Positions 4,382 to 20,163 of a DNA stretch of 52,698 bases are shown piece by piece. How positions within the stretch are numbered: the first letter of the stretch is position 1; each line of letters starts with the position of its first letter. This DNA is from a virus: positions 1 to 52,698 of the IMG/VR virus record IMGVR_UViG_3300028800_000120. One strand, written 5' to 3'. The notes under the pieces were generated by a model, which was given only the letters and a program-made list of their open reading frames with translations, was not told the origin of the DNA and searched no databases. The position numbers and the translations under genes are program-made.

Positions 4382-4674
4382 ACCGTTGCCTCCGGTTGAT
4401 ATCTGATAGCCGCGTGAATCCGGCCGGCCAGTGTGCCGGGCCCTTTCGGCGCTGGCGCCTCAAGCTTGGCCGCGTGCTGGCCTTCCGCATCGCGGCGCCC
4501 GGCCATGATGTCGAGCATGATCCAGAGAACGCGCTCGGCCATTTCGTCCTGGAGCTTGAGTTGCACCGTTTGGACCAGGTGCGCCTCGCTGTGCCGCTGT
4601 TCGTGGCGTAGCTCGCGCTGCAGCTGTGCAAAGGCGGTCAGCAGCATCAGTCCGTTTTCAGGTTGCGTGCTCAT
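4378..4674 (-). CDS. helical hypothetical protein (98 aa)
   Basis: Begins MSTQPENGLMLLTAFAQLQR. A long amphipathic helix (RHEQRHSEAHLVQTVQLKLQ) suggests a coiled coil. ATG at 4674 is set by the ATGA overlap with the upstream gene; the longer reading to 4719 is rejected. No family recognised. Confidence 0.7.
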   Translation of the reverse strand: MSTQPENGLMLLTAFAQLQRELRHEQRHSEAHLVQTVQLKLQDEMAERVLWIMLDIMAGRRDAEGQHAAKLEAPAPKGPGTLAGRIHAAIRYQPEATV

Positions 4675-4859
4675 GGCTGTTTCTCCAGCGTGTCGAGTTT
4701 TGTGATCGCCCGTTCCCACTGCTTGACGCTTTCGGCGTGCCCGAGATTGGCTGAAACCGCCCGATGCCAGTTGGCCTGCCGCTTGAGTGCGGCGAGCGTT
4801 TCTTCCAGCCCGTTAAGGCCCAGGATGCGGCGCAGCTGTTGTTCGTCGCTGGTGTTCAC
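4671..4859 (-). CDS. small helical hypothetical protein (62 aa)
   Basis: Begins with GTG (MNTSDEQQLRRILGLNGLEE) and is helical throughout, ending AITKLDTLEKQP. The GTG overlaps the stop of a 25-residue membrane peptide upstream (GTGA), which supports both calls. Function unknown. Confidence 0.7.
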   Translation of the reverse strand: MNTSDEQQLRRILGLNGLEETLAALKRQANWHRAVSANLGHAESVKQWERAITKLDTLEKQP

Positions 4860-4933
4860 AGTCGCACCCCGTAAAAAATGATGAGATAAGCAGCTAGACC
4901 GATGACGGCGAGTGTGATCCTGCCGAAGGTCAT
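4856..4933 (-). CDS. 25-aa single-span membrane peptide
   Basis: Reads MTFGRITLAVIGLAAYLIIF then YGVRL. It is one hydrophobic helix with a basic residue at each end, typical of phage membrane micropeptides. It ends in a GTGA overlap with the next gene and follows another micropeptide by 4 bases. Its size is below usual gene-calling limits. Packing and hydrophobicity are the evidence; the role is unknown. Confidence 0.55.
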   Translation of the reverse strand: MTFGRITLAVIGLAAYLIIFYGVRL

Positions 4934-4937
4934 GACT

Positions 4938-5009
4938 CTAAATCCCCCAGATGGCTTGGATGATAAGAAGGGCCAGCATGATGGTGACCCGCGCGGTATG
5001 GTTGGGCAT
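4938..5009 (-). CDS. 23-aa membrane micropeptide
   Basis: Reads MPNHTARVTIMLALLIIQAI then WGI. The hydrophobic segment would just span a membrane. The ATG shares one base with the stop of the upstream gene (TGATG), so it is positioned for coupled translation. Together with the 25-aa peptide below it forms a pair of tandem membrane micropeptides. Confidence 0.5.
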   Translation of the reverse strand: MPNHTARVTIMLALLIIQAIWGI

Positions 5010-7520: not shown

Positions 7521-8291
7521 GTGTCACGCCGCCAGCTATTGCGCCTTCCCGACATTTCCACCATCGACGGCCCGCCGCCATCCGAACTACCAAGTAGCGG
7601 CTCCGCCGCCGCCTCAGCACCGCCTCAATACGGTCCCGCGCCGCCGGCGGGCCCGCCCCCAACCGACATCCAGATCAACACCTTCCACGCCAAGCTGGAG
7701 AAACCCGCCCGCCGGCTAGGCCGCGCCCGCATGGCCCATAACATCACAAACGCCGAGCTCGAAGCCCTCGGTCCCGCTCCGCGCGGTCCCCACGCAGACC
7801 CCTTCATCGAAGCCTTCGCTGTCCCCGGCACCATCAGCGGCCGCATGCTTCGCTGGAATAATTCCGGGGAACACCCCCTCACCCAGGCATGGCATTCCGG
7901 CCGAATAGACGACACCCAGTATGCCGCGGGCGAAGCGCTTCGAAACCTTGTCGAGATCACCACCGGTTCCGGCAAGGACAGCACAGAGAAACTTGGCGGT
8001 GCTCCCGGTGGTGCTGGCGGGCCCCGAACACCCTGGACCGACACCCAACGCGACGCAGCCGAAATTCTCGGTCGCATCCAGGCCAGGATGAAGAAAGAAG
8101 ATTACGCCATATGTAGAAAATTTTGTGCCGAGGGCTACACCATGTTGGAGGCGCTAAAGAGCGCGGGCGCCCGGTTCCACAAAAACCACGTCACCTCAAG
8201 AGTTTGTGAAGCGCTCGATTATCTGGCAGGGCGCAAAAAGAAATTCGCGCGTAAACGCCGGAACCGTCGAAAGGCTCCCAGAAGGGTTTGA
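7521..8291 (+). CDS. hypothetical protein, Pro-rich N-terminus and basic C-terminus (256 aa)
   Basis: GTG start gives MSRRQLLRLPDISTIDG; residues 17-50 are Pro/Ser/Ala-rich and probably disordered. The central part holds RIDDTQYAAGEALRNLVEIT and a GSGKDST stretch. The C-terminal part (RMKKEDYAICRKFCAEGYTM) looks like a helix-turn-helix and ends in a very basic tail. It lies just upstream of the terminase genes, as small DNA-binding packaging or regulatory proteins often do. Role inferred only. Confidence 0.72.
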   Translation: MSRRQLLRLPDISTIDGPPPSELPSSGSAAASAPPQYGPAPPAGPPPTDIQINTFHAKLEKPARRLGRARMAHNITNAELEALGPAPRGPHADPFIEAFAVPGTISGRMLRWNNSGEHPLTQAWHSGRIDDTQYAAGEALRNLVEITTGSGKDSTEKLGGAPGGAGGPRTPWTDTQRDAAEILGRIQARMKKEDYAICRKFCAEGYTMLEALKSAGARFHKNHVTSRVCEALDYLAGRKKKFARKRRNRRKAPRRV

Positions 8292-8366: not shown

Positions 8367-8852
8367 ATGCCGACCCCGCGCAAGCCTCCCGCTGCTCACA
8401 AACCAAACGGCCGGCCACCCTTCAATCCGACGGCAGACGACCGCGAAAAGGTGAAGCGGTTCTTGGAATGTGGCTACAAGCGCGCCACGATCGCAGCCTA
8501 TTTCGAAATCCACCTGGACACGCTGGAAGAGCACTTCAAGGAAGAGCTTCGCACCGCTCGGATGGACCTGCTTCGCCGCGGCATGTCGAAGTTTCAGCTG
8601 GCGGTGCTGGACGGCGAGGAATGGGCGATCAAGTTTCTGTTGGCGAACACGGCACACGGCAGGGAATTCGATGCCGGGTTTTCCACACGGACAGAATTGA
8701 CCGCTGCTGGCGGCGCCGACCTGTTCCAGAACATGAACCTTTCCAGCTTGAGCGACGCTGATTATGCGGCCCTCAAGGCAATTCTCGCCCGAGCAGGCTT
8801 TGCTGTCAGCGATCCAACTGGAGGATCAGCGGCGGGCGGCGCTTCGGCTTGA
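8367..8852 (+). CDS. putative terminase small subunit (161 aa)
   Basis: Begins MPTPRKPPAAHKPNGRPPFN. An N-terminal helix-turn-helix (KVKRFLECGYKRATIAAYFE, then IHLDTLEEHFKEELRTARMD) is the expected DNA-recognition part. It is followed by a helical stretch (MSKFQLAVLDGEEWAIKFLL) and an acidic tail. Position immediately before, and overlapping by 89 bases, the large terminase supports the role of recognising packaging DNA and presenting it to the motor. Family identity is inferred from position and HTH style. Confidence 0.75.
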   Translation: MPTPRKPPAAHKPNGRPPFNPTADDREKVKRFLECGYKRATIAAYFEIHLDTLEEHFKEELRTARMDLLRRGMSKFQLAVLDGEEWAIKFLLANTAHGREFDAGFSTRTELTAAGGADLFQNMNLSSLSDADYAALKAILARAGFAVSDPTGGSAAGGASA

Positions 8853-10887
8853 GCAGGTAAACCGCAGTCGCGCGGAGCTGATCGAGGCCAGCAAGGCGCG
8901 CTGCAAGACCTTCCTGGGTTTCGTCCGCGAGGCGTGGCATGTGCTGGAGCCCAAGGCCCAGTATGTCCACGGCATGCAGATCGAGGCGATTTGCGAGCAC
9001 CTGGAGGCGGTTACCAACCACCAGATTAACCGGCTGCTGATGAACGTGCCGCCGGGCGCGATGAAATCGCTACTGACATCGGTCTTTTTCCAGGCTTGGG
9101 AATGGGGACCGATGAACCTGGCGAGCAACCGTTTCGTCAGCACGGCCTTCAACGATATCCCGGTCAAGCGCGACAGCCGGAAGTGCCGCAACCTGATCCT
9201 TTCGGACTGGTACATGGAGCGTTGGCCCCATGTGATACTCACCCGCGCGGGCGAGACCAGCTTCGAGAACACGCAGACTGGATTTCGAGAGGGCGTGCCG
9301 TTCGGCTCGCTTACCTCCCAGCGCGGCGACCGCCTTATAATCGATGACCCGCAGTCGGTTAAGACTGCGGAATCGAAGCTGATGCTGCCGCAGACGACGC
9401 TGCTGTTCCGGGAAGGCGCGCTGAACCGCCTGAACGACCAGGTTCTCAGCGCCATGATCATCATCATGCAGCGGCTGGCGGAAAACGACATCAGCCAGGC
9501 GGCCCTGGATGTGGTCGAGGGCATCGTCCATGTGATGATCCCGATGGAGTTCGAGAAGGCGCGGGCCTGCATCACCGCCATTGGCTGGAAAGACTGGCGC
9601 ACCGTCGAAGGCGAACTGATGGAGCCGCTGCGTTTTCCCCAGGAAGTGGTGGACGCGCTGAAGAAAGGCATGGGCGCCCATGCCTTTGCCGGCCAGTATC
9701 AGCAGCGCCCGACCGCCCGCGAAGGCGGCATGTTCCAGCGGGTCTGGTTCGACAACAAGATTTTGGATGTGATGCCCGCCGGCATGTCGCGCGCGGTCCG
9801 ATCCTATGACTTCGCGGCCACCGATGAGACGGCCGGCACCGAACCCGCCTACACCGCCTCGATCAAGATCGAGACAGACGGCCAGATTTTCGTCATCAGT
9901 CACGCAAAGGATTACCGGAAGTCTCCCGGCCAAGTGCACGACGATGTGAAACAGACCGCGGGGCGCGATGGCCCGCTGGTCCACATCGCCATCCCAGAAG
10001 ACCCGGGCCAGGCCGGCAAGGATCAGGTGCGCACGTATGCCGCCGAAAACCCCGGCAATGTGCTGAAGGGCATTCCGGTCTCGGGCGAGAAGACCGTCAA
10101 GGCAGATCCGCTGGCCTCGCAGATCGAAGCCGGCAATGTCTATCTGCTCAAGGGCCCGTGGAACGAGCGCTTCATCGACCAGTGCTGCGCTTTCCCCAAG
10201 GGCTTTATCGACATGGTGGATGCGGCCGCGCAGGGCTACAATTACCTGACCGGCGCCCACCAGCCGTCATTCTTCGACATGCAGAAATTCCTGGTGCGCG
10301 GCTATCCCGTGCCCGCGCCCGAGCGTCTGGATGCAGTGTTTGCGGTTCTGGTCTCGGACGTGAAGAGCGGCAAGGACATCGAAACCGCTGGCGTCGTGTA
10401 TTTCGGCAAGAAGGATGTCGGCGGCTGGCCGCTTACCATCTTGGACTGGAGCGTGAGCCCGGTCACCGGCGGCGTGCTGGATACCTGGTTCACCAGCATC
10501 TTTTCCCGCGTCAGGGAATTGGGCGAGGTGTTGCGGGCCGAGCCGCTGGGCTGCTTCATCAGTCCCAAGGGTGTTGGCAGCGTTCTGCTTTCTCAGGCAA
10601 ACCGGCGGATGCTGCCGGCAGAGCCTATCGATGAGGAACTGGCGAAGCTCGGCATCAACGAGCGCGCGGTCAACGCCTCGACCTATATCGACCGCGAAAT
10701 GGTGAAGATCAGCGCGACCGCCTTCCACAAGCTGATGTGGTCCGGCACGCAGAACCGCAACCATCTGCTGGATGAGATTGCGGTGTTCCGCATCGATGAG
10801 AAGGAAAATTCGAAGGCGGCGCTCGACCTGCTCAGCTGCGTGCTGTTCGGCCTGGCGCTGAACTTCGGAAACGCGGAGGGCCGCTGA
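8764..10887 (+). CDS. terminase large subunit with extra C-terminal RNase H-like domain (707 aa)
   Basis: ATP-driven DNA packaging motor and nuclease. Residues 94-102 NVPPGAMKS form the Walker A-like loop, 190-196 RLIIDDP the Walker B. The nuclease domain starts at SYDFAATDE (347-355), with further acidic residues at IPEDPG (410-415) and FIDMVDAAA (481-489). Canonical terminases of this type end near residue 500; here about 190 more residues follow (VFAVLVSDVKSGKD, LTILDWSV, KAALDLLSC) that look like a second RNase H-like fold. The start at 8764 overlaps the small subunit by 89 bases; its ribosome site is weak. Confidence 0.93.
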   Translation: MRPSRQFSPEQALLSAIQLEDQRRAALRLEQVNRSRAELIEASKARCKTFLGFVREAWHVLEPKAQYVHGMQIEAICEHLEAVTNHQINRLLMNVPPGAMKSLLTSVFFQAWEWGPMNLASNRFVSTAFNDIPVKRDSRKCRNLILSDWYMERWPHVILTRAGETSFENTQTGFREGVPFGSLTSQRGDRLIIDDPQSVKTAESKLMLPQTTLLFREGALNRLNDQVLSAMIIIMQRLAENDISQAALDVVEGIVHVMIPMEFEKARACITAIGWKDWRTVEGELMEPLRFPQEVVDALKKGMGAHAFAGQYQQRPTAREGGMFQRVWFDNKILDVMPAGMSRAVRSYDFAATDETAGTEPAYTASIKIETDGQIFVISHAKDYRKSPGQVHDDVKQTAGRDGPLVHIAIPEDPGQAGKDQVRTYAAENPGNVLKGIPVSGEKTVKADPLASQIEAGNVYLLKGPWNERFIDQCCAFPKGFIDMVDAAAQGYNYLTGAHQPSFFDMQKFLVRGYPVPAPERLDAVFAVLVSDVKSGKDIETAGVVYFGKKDVGGWPLTILDWSVSPVTGGVLDTWFTSIFSRVRELGEVLRAEPLGCFISPKGVGSVLLSQANRRMLPAEPIDEELAKLGINERAVNASTYIDREMVKISATAFHKLMWSGTQNRNHLLDEIAVFRIDEKENSKAALDLLSCVLFGLALNFGNAEGR

Positions 10888-11006: not shown

Positions 11007-12593
11007 TTGGCAAACGAGATCGACACCCCCACAACACCGAACGATAGCGCCAACATCGGCTTTAACGGCGCCGAGCTCGGCACAGAGCTGACTGATCTGC
11101 TGTGCTGCGACGACATCCAGCCCGGCTCGGAACCGTCGTATCAGGTCTGCAAGACGATCTACCTCTACCACCCGCTGGGCGCGAAGATGGCGGCATCGCC
11201 CATCAAGCTGGCGCAGAGCCAGCCGCGCAACATCCACATCAATGTGGAAAGCGGCCTGGAAGAGAAGCTGAAGAAGCAGTTTTTGGAGACCTGGCGCGCG
11301 CTCGACGCTGACGGGAATATCCTCAACCACAAGTCGCAGTCTCGCGTCTACGGCATCTGCACCATCGTTATGATGGCCGAAGGTGTGCCAGCCGAGCAAC
11401 CCATCGACTACTTCAAGCTTCCCGACCTGGAAGTGACCTTCAACATCTTGGACCCGCTCAACACTGCCGGGTCGATGGTGCTGAACCAGAACCCGAACGC
11501 GGAGGATTTTCAGAAGCCGATCGCAATCGCCGTCGCCGGCAAGCGGTATCACCGCAGCCGCGGCCTGGTGGTGATGAACGAAAAACCGATCTACATCAGC
11601 TACACGTCTTCGGCGTATGGCTTTGTGGGCCGCTCGGTCTATCAGCGCGCGCTCTTCCCGCTGAAGAGCTTCATCAACACCATGGTCACCGACGACATGG
11701 TGACCAAGAAGGCCGGCCTGCTGATCGCGATGATCCAGACGGTTTCGAGCGCGGTGAACCGGCTGCAGGCGGTATTCGGCGCCGTCAAGCGCAACCTGCT
11801 CAAGACCGCTGTGGTCGGCAACGTCTTGCAGGTGGGCGAAAAGGACAAGATCGAAACCCTGAACATGCAGAACCTGGATGGCGCCTTCGGCATGGCCCGC
11901 AAGGACATCCTGGAGAATATCGCCGTCTCGGCCGACATGCCGGCGGTGATGCTGAACAGCGAGACTTTCGCCCAAGGCTTTGCCGACGGCTCGGAAGACG
12001 CAAAGAACGTGGCCCACTATCTCGATCGCATGCGCGAAGAGATGAACCCGCAATACGCCTGGTTCGACCTGATCTGCATGCACAAAGCCTGGTCGCCCGC
12101 CTTCTACAAGACCATCCAGAAGGAATATCCGGACCGCTATGGCAAGGTGGATTACAAGACCGCCTTCCTGGAATGGAAGAACAGCTTCAGCACGTCCTGG
12201 CCGAATTTTCTGACCGAGCCGGACAGCGAGAAGGTCAAGACGGACGAAACCAAGCTGAAGGCCGCGGTGGCTGTGTTCCAGGTGCTGGAGCCGATCTGCG
12301 ATCCGGAGAGCAAGGCGACGCTGGCCACATGGCTCTGCGATACCGTCAACACCAACAAGACGATGTTTCCGGTGCCGCTGAACCTGGACCCGGATTTGCT
12401 CATGGACTATGTGCCGCCCGAACAGCAGGCGATGCTGGAAGAGCCAAAGCCGGCCAAGCCGTTCTCCGCCTCCGATGCCTCAAAGGCCGCGGTCGCAGCA
12501 TGGCTCGGTGCGCCCGGCAAGGATCTCACGCCGCGCCAGTCCATGCGCGCGCTGCTTGAGTATGTGAACAGCAAGGGCCAACCCCTGAATTGA
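11007..12593 (+). CDS. portal protein, DUF1073-like (528 aa)
   Basis: Forms the dodecameric DNA gate at one capsid vertex. Length, position right after the terminase, and sequence features fit the DUF1073 portal family: YQVCKTIYLYHPLGAKM near residue 45, RVYGICTIVMMAEG, VAGKRYHRSRGLVVMNEKP, and NIAVSADMPAVMLN. The start is TTG at 11007 with GAGG about 7 bases upstream; no better start exists near the conserved N-terminus. The stop overlaps the next gene (TTGA). Confidence 0.88.
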   Translation: MANEIDTPTTPNDSANIGFNGAELGTELTDLLCCDDIQPGSEPSYQVCKTIYLYHPLGAKMAASPIKLAQSQPRNIHINVESGLEEKLKKQFLETWRALDADGNILNHKSQSRVYGICTIVMMAEGVPAEQPIDYFKLPDLEVTFNILDPLNTAGSMVLNQNPNAEDFQKPIAIAVAGKRYHRSRGLVVMNEKPIYISYTSSAYGFVGRSVYQRALFPLKSFINTMVTDDMVTKKAGLLIAMIQTVSSAVNRLQAVFGAVKRNLLKTAVVGNVLQVGEKDKIETLNMQNLDGAFGMARKDILENIAVSADMPAVMLNSETFAQGFADGSEDAKNVAHYLDRMREEMNPQYAWFDLICMHKAWSPAFYKTIQKEYPDRYGKVDYKTAFLEWKNSFSTSWPNFLTEPDSEKVKTDETKLKAAVAVFQVLEPICDPESKATLATWLCDTVNTNKTMFPVPLNLDPDLLMDYVPPEQQAMLEEPKPAKPFSASDASKAAVAAWLGAPGKDLTPRQSMRALLEYVNSKGQPLN

Positions 12594-12814
12594 GCCTCCA
12601 GGCCGGGATGCTCGCCAGCCTGAACGAAATGGCCATCACGAAGGCGAATTTCACCGAGGCGCTGCGCATCTATCACCGGGCCTGCGAGGCCAAGGACTGG
12701 CCGGCAGTTGAAACCGCCCGGTTCGGCGTGATATCCGCGCTTGAGGCCAGTATGGACGCGGTGGCGTCCACTTATCGGCTGATGGAAGAGGCGGCCAAGG
12801 GTGGCAACCAGTAA
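12590..12814 (+). CDS. small helical protein between portal and head protein (74 aa)
   Basis: TTG at 12590 overlaps the portal stop; ATG at 12608 (MLASLNEMAITKANFTEALR) is an equally good start. The sequence is alpha-helical (IYHRACEAKDWPAVETARFG). It overlaps the next gene by 14 bases. Function unknown, possibly a portal or head-assembly accessory by position. Confidence 0.62.
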   Translation: MSLQAGMLASLNEMAITKANFTEALRIYHRACEAKDWPAVETARFGVISALEASMDAVASTYRLMEEAAKGGNQ

Positions 12815-13631
12815 GTCTTTCAACGACCTGCTGAACGACGCCATCAACGATATGGTGGAGCACGGCTTCGACAGCGTAGAGCGCGCGGCCTACTGGCAGG
12901 CCCAGCTTTCGGCGGCAGCGGAGCGGGAATTCCGGTCACAGGACGAACTGGATCGCATCATCCGCGAGGCGATGGCGGCGGTTTATCGCCGCCTGATCGA
13001 AAGAGGTGTGATCCTCAAGGACCACCCCGGTGTCGAGCGCTTCACGATTGATATGGTGCGGCCCGCCGCGCGCGCGGAATTGGACAAGCGCATCCTGGCG
13101 GCGGCGGACCTGATCAAGCTCAACCGGGAGGAAATGCGCCGGCTGACCCTGCGCCGCTTTGCGGGCTGGGCCACCAGCATCCCGCCCGGCGGGGTGAGCG
13201 AAAAGGACAAGCGCAAGACCAGCCAGCACATCAAGCAGCCGATGCAGAGCGCGCCGTTCGAAGAGCGCCGCGTCCTGATCGACCAGGGTCACAAGCTGAG
13301 GAATTCGGTTTCCACCGTGATCGCGATGGATGGCCAGGCGCTGGCAGGCATCTGGCGCAGCCACTGGCGGCAGGCCGGCTACAATTACCGGCCCGACCAC
13401 AAGGACCGCGATTTGCTGGTCTACGCGGTCCCGAACAACTGGGCCATCCAAGCCGGGCTGATGAAGAAAGGCCCGAATCCGTATTTCGACCAGATCACGG
13501 CGCCGGCACAGGAGCCTTTCTGCCGCTGCTACTGGACCTGGATTTACAATCTCGACGCGCTGCCGGTGGATATGCTGACGGCGCTCGGCGTCAAAAGACT
13601 TGCGGAAGCCACCGCGCTTCTGAACGCCTGA
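12801..13631 (+). CDS. Mu F-like minor head / head morphogenesis protein (276 aa)
   Basis: The long helical N-terminal half and the C-terminal signature EPFCRCYWTWIYNLD, with RNSVSTVIAMDGQALAGIWR before it, match the SPP1 gp7/Mu F-like head morphogenesis family. Such proteins sit inside the capsid near the portal. The start is GTG at 12801 (MATSKSFNDLL). It lies directly downstream of the portal as in related phages. Confidence 0.82.
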   Translation: MATSKSFNDLLNDAINDMVEHGFDSVERAAYWQAQLSAAAEREFRSQDELDRIIREAMAAVYRRLIERGVILKDHPGVERFTIDMVRPAARAELDKRILAAADLIKLNREEMRRLTLRRFAGWATSIPPGGVSEKDKRKTSQHIKQPMQSAPFEERRVLIDQGHKLRNSVSTVIAMDGQALAGIWRSHWRQAGYNYRPDHKDRDLLVYAVPNNWAIQAGLMKKGPNPYFDQITAPAQEPFCRCYWTWIYNLDALPVDMLTALGVKRLAEATALLNA

Positions 13632-17923: not shown

Positions 17924-18247
17924 ATGACCACCGACACAACCCGCCAGCCCTCACAGGCCATGCCGGTCTACCTGGCGCCCGCCCCCGGCGCCGCCAGCAA
18001 GAACATCACGACCGCCACCACGACCGAGATCAAGGAGTCGGCGGGCTATGTAACAAACATCGCGATCAACACCGGCGTCGCCGCCACAACGCTAAAGCTC
18101 TATGACGGCGATCCGGCAGGCAGCGGCGTGCTGCTGGGCACCTGGTCAACTGCGGCGCAAAACGGCATCCCGGTGAATATCCCGTTTGCCACCGCGCTCT
18201 ATGCGGTCACCAGCGGCCTTGCTGACGTCACGGTGTCCTACGTCTGA
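17924..18247 (+). CDS. small beta-rich virion-type protein (107 aa)
   Basis: Begins MTTDTTRQPSQAMPVYLAPA, then TTTEIKESAGYVTNIAINTG and TLKLYDGDPAGSGVLLGTWS, a pattern of phage head decoration or stabilisation proteins. The stop and the next start share one base (TGATG), coupling it to the protease/scaffold gene. Confidence 0.7.
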   Translation: MTTDTTRQPSQAMPVYLAPAPGAASKNITTATTTEIKESAGYVTNIAINTGVAATTLKLYDGDPAGSGVLLGTWSTAAQNGIPVNIPFATALYAVTSGLADVTVSYV

Positions 18248-20163
18248 TGGCTGAAACCATCCGCGCCGCCGGCATCATGTTCCTGACGGCGGAGCGTCAA
18301 GTTCTGTTTCTGAAAAGGGGTAATGGAGGCGACTTTCCCGGACATTGGTGTTTGCCTGGCGGCAAGCAAGAGCCGGGCGAGACGCTTGAACAGTGCGCCG
18401 TGCGCGAGACAACGGAAGAGGCTGGCGATGTGCCGCCCGGCAAGCGCGAAGAGCTTTGCCGCAGCACGGCTATCGGATTTCCCGCGCCGATCAATGAGGG
18501 ATTGCCGGGCGAGGCCGCGCCTGGGCAGCAGGTGGATTTCACCACCTTCCTGCAGAAGATCGAAAAACCGTTCACGCCCATCCAGGATGATGAGCACACC
18601 GGATATGCCTGGGCGCCGGCCAACCAGCCGCCCGAGCCGCTTCATCCTGGCGTGGCGATCGCACTGCGGCGCATGCGCGGAAACGAGCTCGACATCGCGC
18701 GGATGATGGCCGCGGGCGAGCTGAGCAGCCCGCAGAAGTACCATAACGTCTGGCTCTTTTCGCTGCGCATCACTGGCACCGGCATGGCGGTGCGCAAAGA
18801 GAAGAAGGACAAGAAAACCGGCAAGGTCACGCGCCCCGAGGAATTGGTGTGGCGCAGCTCTGACATTTATTGCAACGACGAATTTCTCGCGCGCTGCAAT
18901 GGCCTGCAGGTTATCTGGGAGCATCCCGAAGGGGCGACGCTCGACAGTCAGGAATTCCAGCAGCGCTCGCTCGGCGCGATCATGCTGCCCTTCATCGGCA
19001 ACGGCAGGGTCGGAGCGCCGGATGAGGTCTGGGGTATCGCGAAGGTCTATGATGAAGGCGCTGCCGTCATCATGGGCAAGATGCAGCTTTCGACATCGCC
19101 CACGGTGGTGCTTGGCGATGAGGAAAATCCGGACCTGGTGCTCAAGACCGAAGACGGTCGGCGCCTGATAATTGAAAGCACACCCAAGCTAGTGGATCAT
19201 GTCGCTATCTGCTGGCAGGGGGTTTGGGACAAAGGCGGCGAGCCGAAAGGCGTTCTTGTTGAAACTCTAGCAGTGGGAGACTCCACAGACATGACGGAAG
19301 AAGAGAAAAAGGCTGCGGCCGATGCGCAGGCGCGCAAGGACGCGGAAGAGAAGGCCGCCAAGGAAAAGGCTGACGCAGAGGCCAAGGAAAAGGCCGATGC
19401 TGCCGAAGACCGCAAGCGCATGGCCGACGCCATGAGCACGATGGCGGACTCCCTGAAGGGCATCCACGAGCGTCTGGACTCGGTGGAGAAGAAGGCGGAC
19501 GCCGCGTGCGCCAAGGCCGACAGCGTGCGCGAAGACGCGCGCAAGGACGGCGAGTCCGAAGAGGACTACAAGGCGCGCATGGACAAGAAGCGCAAGGACT
19601 CCGAGGAGGCCGAAGCCAAGGCGAAAAAAGACGCCGAGGAAAAGGAAGCCAAGGAAAAGGCCGATGCGCAGGCGAAAGCCGATGCCGAAAAGGGCCTCTC
19701 CGAAATCCGCAAGGAGCTCAACGATCTGCGGGCGCTGACCAAGCCCCGCACGCCGGAAGAGCGCAAGGCTTATGCCGATGCGCAGGTGCGCTTCGATGAG
19801 GTCTACAACAAGCTCGGGCGCCAGGCGCCGGCGCCGATGGATGGGGAGGCTCTCCCCGACTATCGCCGCCGTCTTGCCGCGGGCCTGAAGGTCCACAGCC
19901 AAGCCTGGAAGGACACCGATCTCATGACCGTGGCGGACGATGCCCTCTATGGCACCATCGAGGCCCAGATCCTGCAGCAGGCGACCGAGTTCTCTGCCCG
20001 CCCCGACAATACCGAAGTGGGGTTGCGCATGGTCACCAAGCGCGAAGGCGGCCACGAAATCCATGAGTTCTATGGCCAGCCTGCCAACTGGATGGACCTC
20101 TTTGCCGGCGGTCGCCAGCGTGTGACCGGCAAGCTGCAAGGCAACCTCGGGGGTAACCGCTAA
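18247..20163 (+). CDS. Nudix hydrolase fused to DUF2213-like head protease and scaffold-like coiled coil (638 aa)
   Basis: Residues 1-~150 form a Nudix domain: the box runs 39-61, with G39, E45, R53, E54, E57, E58 and G60 present. Residues ~160-335 match the DUF2213 phage family (KYHNVWLFSLRITGTGMAVR, DEFLARCNGLQVIWEHPEG), thought to act in head maturation. Residues ~345-490 are an Ala/Lys/Glu coiled coil. The C-terminal part (490-638) contains the scaffold-like region. An internal ATG at 19291 (residue 349) with GGGAGA upstream could make a separate scaffold. Located just before the decoration and capsid genes. Confidence 0.82.
   Translation: MAETIRAAGIMFLTAERQVLFLKRGNGGDFPGHWCLPGGKQEPGETLEQCAVRETTEEAGDVPPGKREELCRSTAIGFPAPINEGLPGEAAPGQQVDFTTFLQKIEKPFTPIQDDEHTGYAWAPANQPPEPLHPGVAIALRRMRGNELDIARMMAAGELSSPQKYHNVWLFSLRITGTGMAVRKEKKDKKTGKVTRPEELVWRSSDIYCNDEFLARCNGLQVIWEHPEGATLDSQEFQQRSLGAIMLPFIGNGRVGAPDEVWGIAKVYDEGAAVIMGKMQLSTSPTVVLGDEENPDLVLKTEDGRRLIIESTPKLVDHVAICWQGVWDKGGEPKGVLVETLAVGDSTDMTEEEKKAAADAQARKDAEEKAAKEKADAEAKEKADAAEDRKRMADAMSTMADSLKGIHERLDSVEKKADAACAKADSVREDARKDGESEEDYKARMDKKRKDSEEAEAKAKKDAEEKEAKEKADAQAKADAEKGLSEIRKELNDLRALTKPRTPEERKAYADAQVRFDEVYNKLGRQAPAPMDGEALPDYRRRLAAGLKVHSQAWKDTDLMTVADDALYGTIEAQILQQATEFSARPDNTEVGLRMVTKREGGHEIHEFYGQPANWMDLFAGGRQRVTGKLQGNLGGNR

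Follow-up and report, generated by a model that had tools for sequence, protein, structure and literature searches.

In the window (the whole 52,698-nucleotide stretch of viral DNA that was analysed) the gene of the terminase large subunit (TerL) is located between the genes of a probable small terminase (TerS) and of the portal protein, the latter being the next long gene after terL (Table 1). The probable TerS matches PHROG phrog_12540. Its homologues were found upstream of the other double-nuclease TerLs described below (48% in L188, 36% in L193), and weaker ones beside some single TerLs. The ORF preceding the TerS gene encodes a protein with a basic C-terminus and, among the sampled loci, was conserved only in the three double-nuclease phages. 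No tRNA gene was found in the window.

Table 1. Location of terL, its domains and the neighbouring genes in the window
Feature	Position	Strand	Basis
256-aa ORF upstream of TerS	7521..8291	+	homologues 47-50% identical upstream of double TerLs L188, L193
Probable small terminase (TerS), 161 aa	8367..8852	+	position, kinship to ORFs beside other TerLs; overlaps TerL start
Double-nuclease terminase large subunit, 707 aa	8764..10887	+	
TerL ATPase part, residues 1-325, lineage A	8764..9738	+	Walker residues, fold
Nuclease domain 1, residues 326-497, lineage A	9739..10254	+	Terminase_6C, acids intact
Nuclease domain 2, residues 501-707, lineage B	10264..10884	+	tblastn, AlphaFold2, PDB fold match
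V530, motif I position, end of beta-1 of domain 2	10351..10353	+	
S600-P601, motif II position, after beta-4 of domain 2	10561..10566	+	
I631 of domain 2, K in single-nuclease homologues	10654..10656	+	
D688-L-L-S691, motif III of domain 2: D688 kept, D691 lost	10825..10836	+	
B-lineage portal protein, Phage_portal_3/DUF1073	11007..12593	+	Pfam; phage matches
B-lineage head-module protein adjoining portal	12801..13631	+	co-occurs with B nuclease and portal
B-lineage NUDIX-domain head-module protein	18247..20163	+	Pfam NUDIX; co-occurs with B portal

The main TerL part of the window ORF (here termed lineage A; TerLs homologous to domain 2 are termed lineage B) is a complete TerL comprising residues 1-504. 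In a profile search phrog_38 covered residues 14-502 (E 9.7e-51), and Pfam Terminase_6C was detected at residues 347-494, above the curated cut-off. The ATPase part contains a Walker A (NVPPGAMKS, residues 94-102) and a Walker B motif (LIIDD, residues 191-195), of which G98, K101, S102, D194 and D195 are kept throughout the aligned lineage-A TerLs, and its fold matches the ATPase domains of T4 gp17 and P74-26. When 127 lineage-A TerLs were compared, the acids of nuclease domain 1 (D349, E412/D413, D483 and D486) were found to be present together with K443; D349, D413, K443, D483 and D486 were retained in all three double TerLs. In structural comparison domain 1 (residues 320-499) matched the same terminase nucleases as domain 2, among them that of G20c (Z 16.5).

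The nearest annotated relatives of residues 40-497 belong to alphaproteobacterial phages, e.g. Rhizobium phage RHph_X3_2 (45% identical). The TerL of this phage (phrog_38/Terminase_6C) has intact motifs, like the corresponding window residues, but it is only about 475 amino acids long, stops after the first nuclease and, unlike that of the window, is not accompanied by a B-type portal. No phage record was found that covered 80% of the 707-residue query, and a PDB sequence search with the whole protein gave no match.

Kinship and fold of the C-terminal domain

Residues 510-707 gave no match with Pfam, PHROGs or NCBIfam profiles. By tblastn they aligned over their full length with the nuclease domains of TerLs from 14 phages, at 31-39% identity (best E 1e-35). 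These lineage-B TerLs are ordinary ones of about 424-465 amino acids (about 424-443 in the phage records inspected), and in these records the homologue of domain 2 was always their sole nuclease, located C-terminally to a different ATPase. Shewanella phage vB_Sb_QDWS, Pantoea phage PdC23 (Certevirus), Klebsiella phage Chronis and Rac-SA53 are representatives: their nuclease is homologous to the whole of domain 2, and the same portal and head genes follow downstream as in the window. Their TerL pairs a B-type ATPase with a single nuclease that has its full set of acids, whereas in the window a lineage-A ATPase and nuclease stand in front and the B nuclease is predicted to be dead. Homology to lineage B begins near residue 501 (FFDMQKFL vs. 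LFDMSKWL in PdC23), directly after the B ATPase-nuclease linker. The original prediction had let an additional RNase H-like domain start at 10321; the domain is present, but its boundary lies slightly earlier. No remnant of a B ATPase was found in the window or in the L188 and L193 contig regions, and no conserved in-frame start for a separate domain 2 product was found near the junction among the three doubles.

The AlphaFold2 model of domain 2 (43 sequences; pLDDT 91.7, pTM 0.90) has RNase H topology. Its best fold match in the PDB was the D6E terminase nuclease (Z 16.7, rmsd 3.5, 173 residues aligned), followed by the nucleases of G20c (Z 14.6), T4 gp17 (13.4) and P22 (13.1). Two RNase H folds were also predicted in the full-length TerL (pLDDT 88.2), although the relative arrangement of the domains in this model is uncertain because of its pTM of 0.59. 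The second RNase H-like fold following a complete ATPase-nuclease, as originally proposed, was thus confirmed. Judged by sequence kinship, domain 2 stems from the nuclease of a second TerL lineage (B), not from a resolvase. The suggestion that the protein arose by fusion also proved right, domain 2 being homologous to the nuclease half of a separate TerL lineage.

The phage matches of the portal protein were exactly the same 14 records as those of domain 2 (36-50% identity). In the first scans, in which loci were fetched by B nuclease or lineage-A TerL, nearly all B-nuclease loci also carried the B portal, and the B portal was absent from every lineage-A-only locus. The order of genes from the portal through to the NUDIX protein is shared as well. 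By these criteria of homology the portal and domain 2 are of the same (B) origin. In one locus (L201) a B-type portal was found and no TerL was recognised within 5 kb upstream; its terminase is located elsewhere or is very different. Two lineage-B TerLs (L060, ORF at 2886; L228, ORF at 2517) appear to contain inteins in Walker A (GRRWGK / T).

Loss of active-site residues in a single clade of double TerLs

Scanning with domain 2 alone yielded only contigs near-identical to the window. Two such IMG/VR contigs (99.97-99.98% identical) belong to different metagenome records and have the same join. A portal-centred scan identified two diverged phages with the same TerL design: L188 (double TerL of 712 amino acids, portal 74% identical to that of the window) and L193 (710 amino acids, portal 58% identical). 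There were no double TerLs among the 11 loci of the genome contig scan. The window, L188 and L193 formed one clade in the trees of the lineage-A part (SH-aLRT 99-100), the portal (99) and domain 2 (100). Since the three cluster in all trees, one fusion event is the simplest history. Their sister single TerL, among those sampled, was that of L106. (A mixed MAFFT alignment put B nucleases on domain 1; the placement was correct once double TerLs had been added.) None of the sampled lineage-A TerLs outside this clade carries domain 2, and a search of the open-access literature yielded no description of a terminase with a pair of nuclease domains. The architecture is therefore as unusual as anticipated.

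The active site was compared in 123 distinct B nucleases, 120 from single-nuclease and three from double TerLs. D530, E600, D601 and K631 were present in 120/120 of the single-nuclease homologues and lost in 3/3 of the doubles. The window has V, S, P and I at these positions, and the doubles have V/C/F at 530, S/R/I at 600, P/N/N at 601 and I/V/I at 631. In motif III of the window domain D688 is kept and D691 is replaced by S691. In the predicted model three of the lost active-site positions map to where beta-1 ends or immediately behind beta-4, the sites at which RNase H-fold nucleases hold their metal-binding acids. Among the acids named originally, D561 (in LTILDWSV) and D688 (in ALDLLSC) are indeed conserved family positions and are still present, but the acid of VSDVKSGKD is not the catalytic one, the catalytic position being occupied by V530. 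Loss of acidic residues from the alignment had been named as grounds for rejecting the prediction; such loss was found and speaks against activity, but not against the fold, for which RNase H topology is predicted. The acids were thus lost in domain 2 and kept in domain 1, and decay of the B nuclease coincided exactly with the presence of another nuclease in the protein. Catalytic loss of domain 2 is strongly supported at the level of the residues, and the protein itself has probably lost the activity.

Other parts of the domain have been maintained. A527, K534, Y546, D561, G605, R634, N666, D688 and G702, structural residues, are conserved. Pairwise comparison of the doubles gave 44-49% identity in domain 2, a pN of about 0.35 against a pS of about 0.6, and open frames throughout; dN/dS is only a rough measure here because synonymous sites are near saturation. 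Domain 2 is under purifying selection: its core residues and its reading frame persist. In the window, however, 15 of 44 highly conserved columns are violated vs. at most seven in any single TerL, and the ratio of nuclease to portal distances is 2.0 in the doubles vs. 0.95 in single TerLs. This faster evolution indicated that constraint was relaxed but not gone.

Origin and possible role of the hybrid motor

The data strongly support the conclusion that the window motor is a natural hybrid, in which a lineage-B nuclease was fused to the C-terminus of a lineage-A motor. Earlier work has suggested that TerL domains are exchanged horizontally (PMC10975493, PMC12846349). For the origin and role of domain 2 we favour, with slightly better than even confidence, replacement of the whole motor, in which the resident nuclease was kept as a non-catalytic adaptor that would dock onto the portal. 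The head module of the phage, from the portal onward, is of lineage B. An ancestor would have gained a complete foreign packaging motor, i.e. a lineage-A TerL, probably with its own TerS. The join would have fallen in the linker between the ATPase and the nuclease of the resident B TerL. The B ATPase would thereby have been lost, and the B nuclease would have remained as an in-frame C-terminal extension of the new motor, immediately preceding the B portal gene. DNA would then be translocated by the lineage-A ATPase and cut by domain 1, and the redundant B nuclease would have lost its metal-binding acids while keeping its fold. The fold would have been kept because a non-catalytic job persists, most likely docking of the foreign motor onto the B-type portal; continued attachment of the B nuclease domain would explain how the incoming motor could use this portal.

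There are partial precedents for such a role. The C-terminal segment of lambda TerL binds the portal (PMC4856287, PMC9026076), portal binding was proposed for the C-terminal arm of D6E, and T4 points the same way (PMC5727402). By analogy with lambda gpA, in which a C-terminal element confers portal binding, a similar role of domain 2 is putative, but the portal binder of gpA is a short terminal tether whereas that of the window would be a whole vestigial nuclease domain. The main weakness of the adaptor interpretation is that the linkage between B nuclease and B portal may reflect gene order alone, as the 3' end of terL adjoins the portal gene; by itself it is no proof of docking. The divergence of domain 2 relative to the portal, about twice that in single TerLs, is what relaxed constraint predicts. 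Finally, the HK97 motor shows clear portal contact by one TerL subunit only, and limited contact by a second (PMC10359639).

Domain 2 might instead be a non-catalytic DNA-binding or regulatory element, which grips DNA or controls cleavage by domain 1 at termination and is not mainly an adaptor. The C-terminal domain of phi29 gp16, a vestigial nuclease that still binds DNA (PMC7672431), offers a possible analogy, and K534 and R634 of the nuclease family are retained. We consider this role unlikely, as it leaves the tight association with the B portal unexplained, and three residues of what is presumed to be the active-site cleft (K631, E600, D601) are missing. The resemblance to gp16 would be in kind only: in both cases a dead RNase H-fold domain appears to have been kept on a packaging ATPase, but gp16 has no active nuclease and is pRNA-dependent (PMC7672431), whereas in the window a live nuclease precedes the dead one.

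A little less probable still is that domain 2 is a functionless relic of motor replacement, decaying slowly. The missing active-site residues, the accelerated divergence relative to the portal and the violated conserved columns are what a relic would display. However, the domain is full-length and in frame in three phages that differ at about half of their domain 2 residues, pN is well below pS, the predicted fold is confident and the structural residues are conserved. A single stop codon would easily remove a C-terminal domain, and L262 likewise retains a dead copy, as a separate gene (see below).

Domain 2 is almost certainly not a second active nuclease, as the original prediction had implied. 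Some acids persist that might serve instead of the lost ones (D532, D561, D688), and D540 is kept in L188 and L193, but the motif I and motif II acids were lost in three different ways (V/C/F; SP/RN/IN) and D532 varies among the doubles (D/A/G). The resolvase-like fusion partner proposed earlier can practically be dismissed: RuvC (Z 7.7) and poxvirus resolvases do have an RNase H fold and match domain 2 with Z 7.7-9.5, but terminase nucleases match it far better (Z 12-16.7), and the sequence homology is to TerL nuclease domains. Many of the sequences are metagenomic contigs, but an annotation or assembly artefact joining two genes is hardly credible, given the same join in the two near-identical contigs from other records and in two diverged phages, and the lack of a conserved internal start among the three doubles.

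Related arrangements in other loci

Arrangements at other loci offer independent parallels that speak for the favoured explanation. In several of them a foreign ATPase (of the phrog_38/phrog_4758 or phrog_979 type) precedes an intact B nuclease, the fusion point again being the B ATPase-nuclease linker. Most of these single-nuclease hybrids lie beside a B portal (L054/L057, L084, L226, L235-L237, L241, L243, L244); no B portal was matched at the hybrid TerLs L088 and L269. L269, L270 and L272 had been picked up by the dead-domain pattern, but their B nucleases proved intact and they are not double TerLs. An apparent intein was seen in L224 (ORF at 2595), another TerL that combines a foreign ATPase with a B nuclease.

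Two IMG/VR loci (L325, 1949-4396; L320, 3941-5884) encode a lineage-A TerL followed by the C-terminal nuclease of another TerL family, phrog_5653, 41% identical to the TerL of a Chlorobiaceae phage. In both, the motif II D of the extra nuclease is replaced by N; L325 also has an altered motif III, and the L320 sequence diverges before that motif. These loci represent a second, independent origin of a double-nuclease TerL.

The two parts were also found encoded separately, as the original prediction had advised looking for. In one contig (L262) the end of the gene of a complete, unrelated TerL (phrog_9) is overlapped by a separate gene of a degenerate B nuclease (186 amino acids, 4426-4986; hhalign probability 97.7, E 2.2e-12), which is followed by a B portal.

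It is to us an even call whether tailed phages can, more generally, replace the whole motor and turn the nuclease of the resident TerL into a dead adaptor that still matches the portal, either fused to the incoming motor (the window clade; L325/L320 with another nuclease family) or free-standing (L262). If they can, the nuclease domain would be the seat of portal specificity, and the interface between motor and capsid would form a module able to evolve separately. The portal-reading part of the large terminase is known for few phages. In these natural hybrids the ATPase, or the entire motor, has been exchanged and one domain has stayed portal-matched, so that motor, cutting and docking are separated without engineering. 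A dead nuclease next to a live one also allows a direct test of what the terminase nuclease domain does apart from catalysis. The window domain would add a second kind of vestigial packaging nuclease to that of phi29 gp16. The hybrids also matter for annotation, because trees of whole TerL proteins would mix two histories. In one further locus, that of Podoviridae isolate ct2G2228 (L334, 1459-3091), TerL is annotated as two adjacent genes separated by a 133-base gap.
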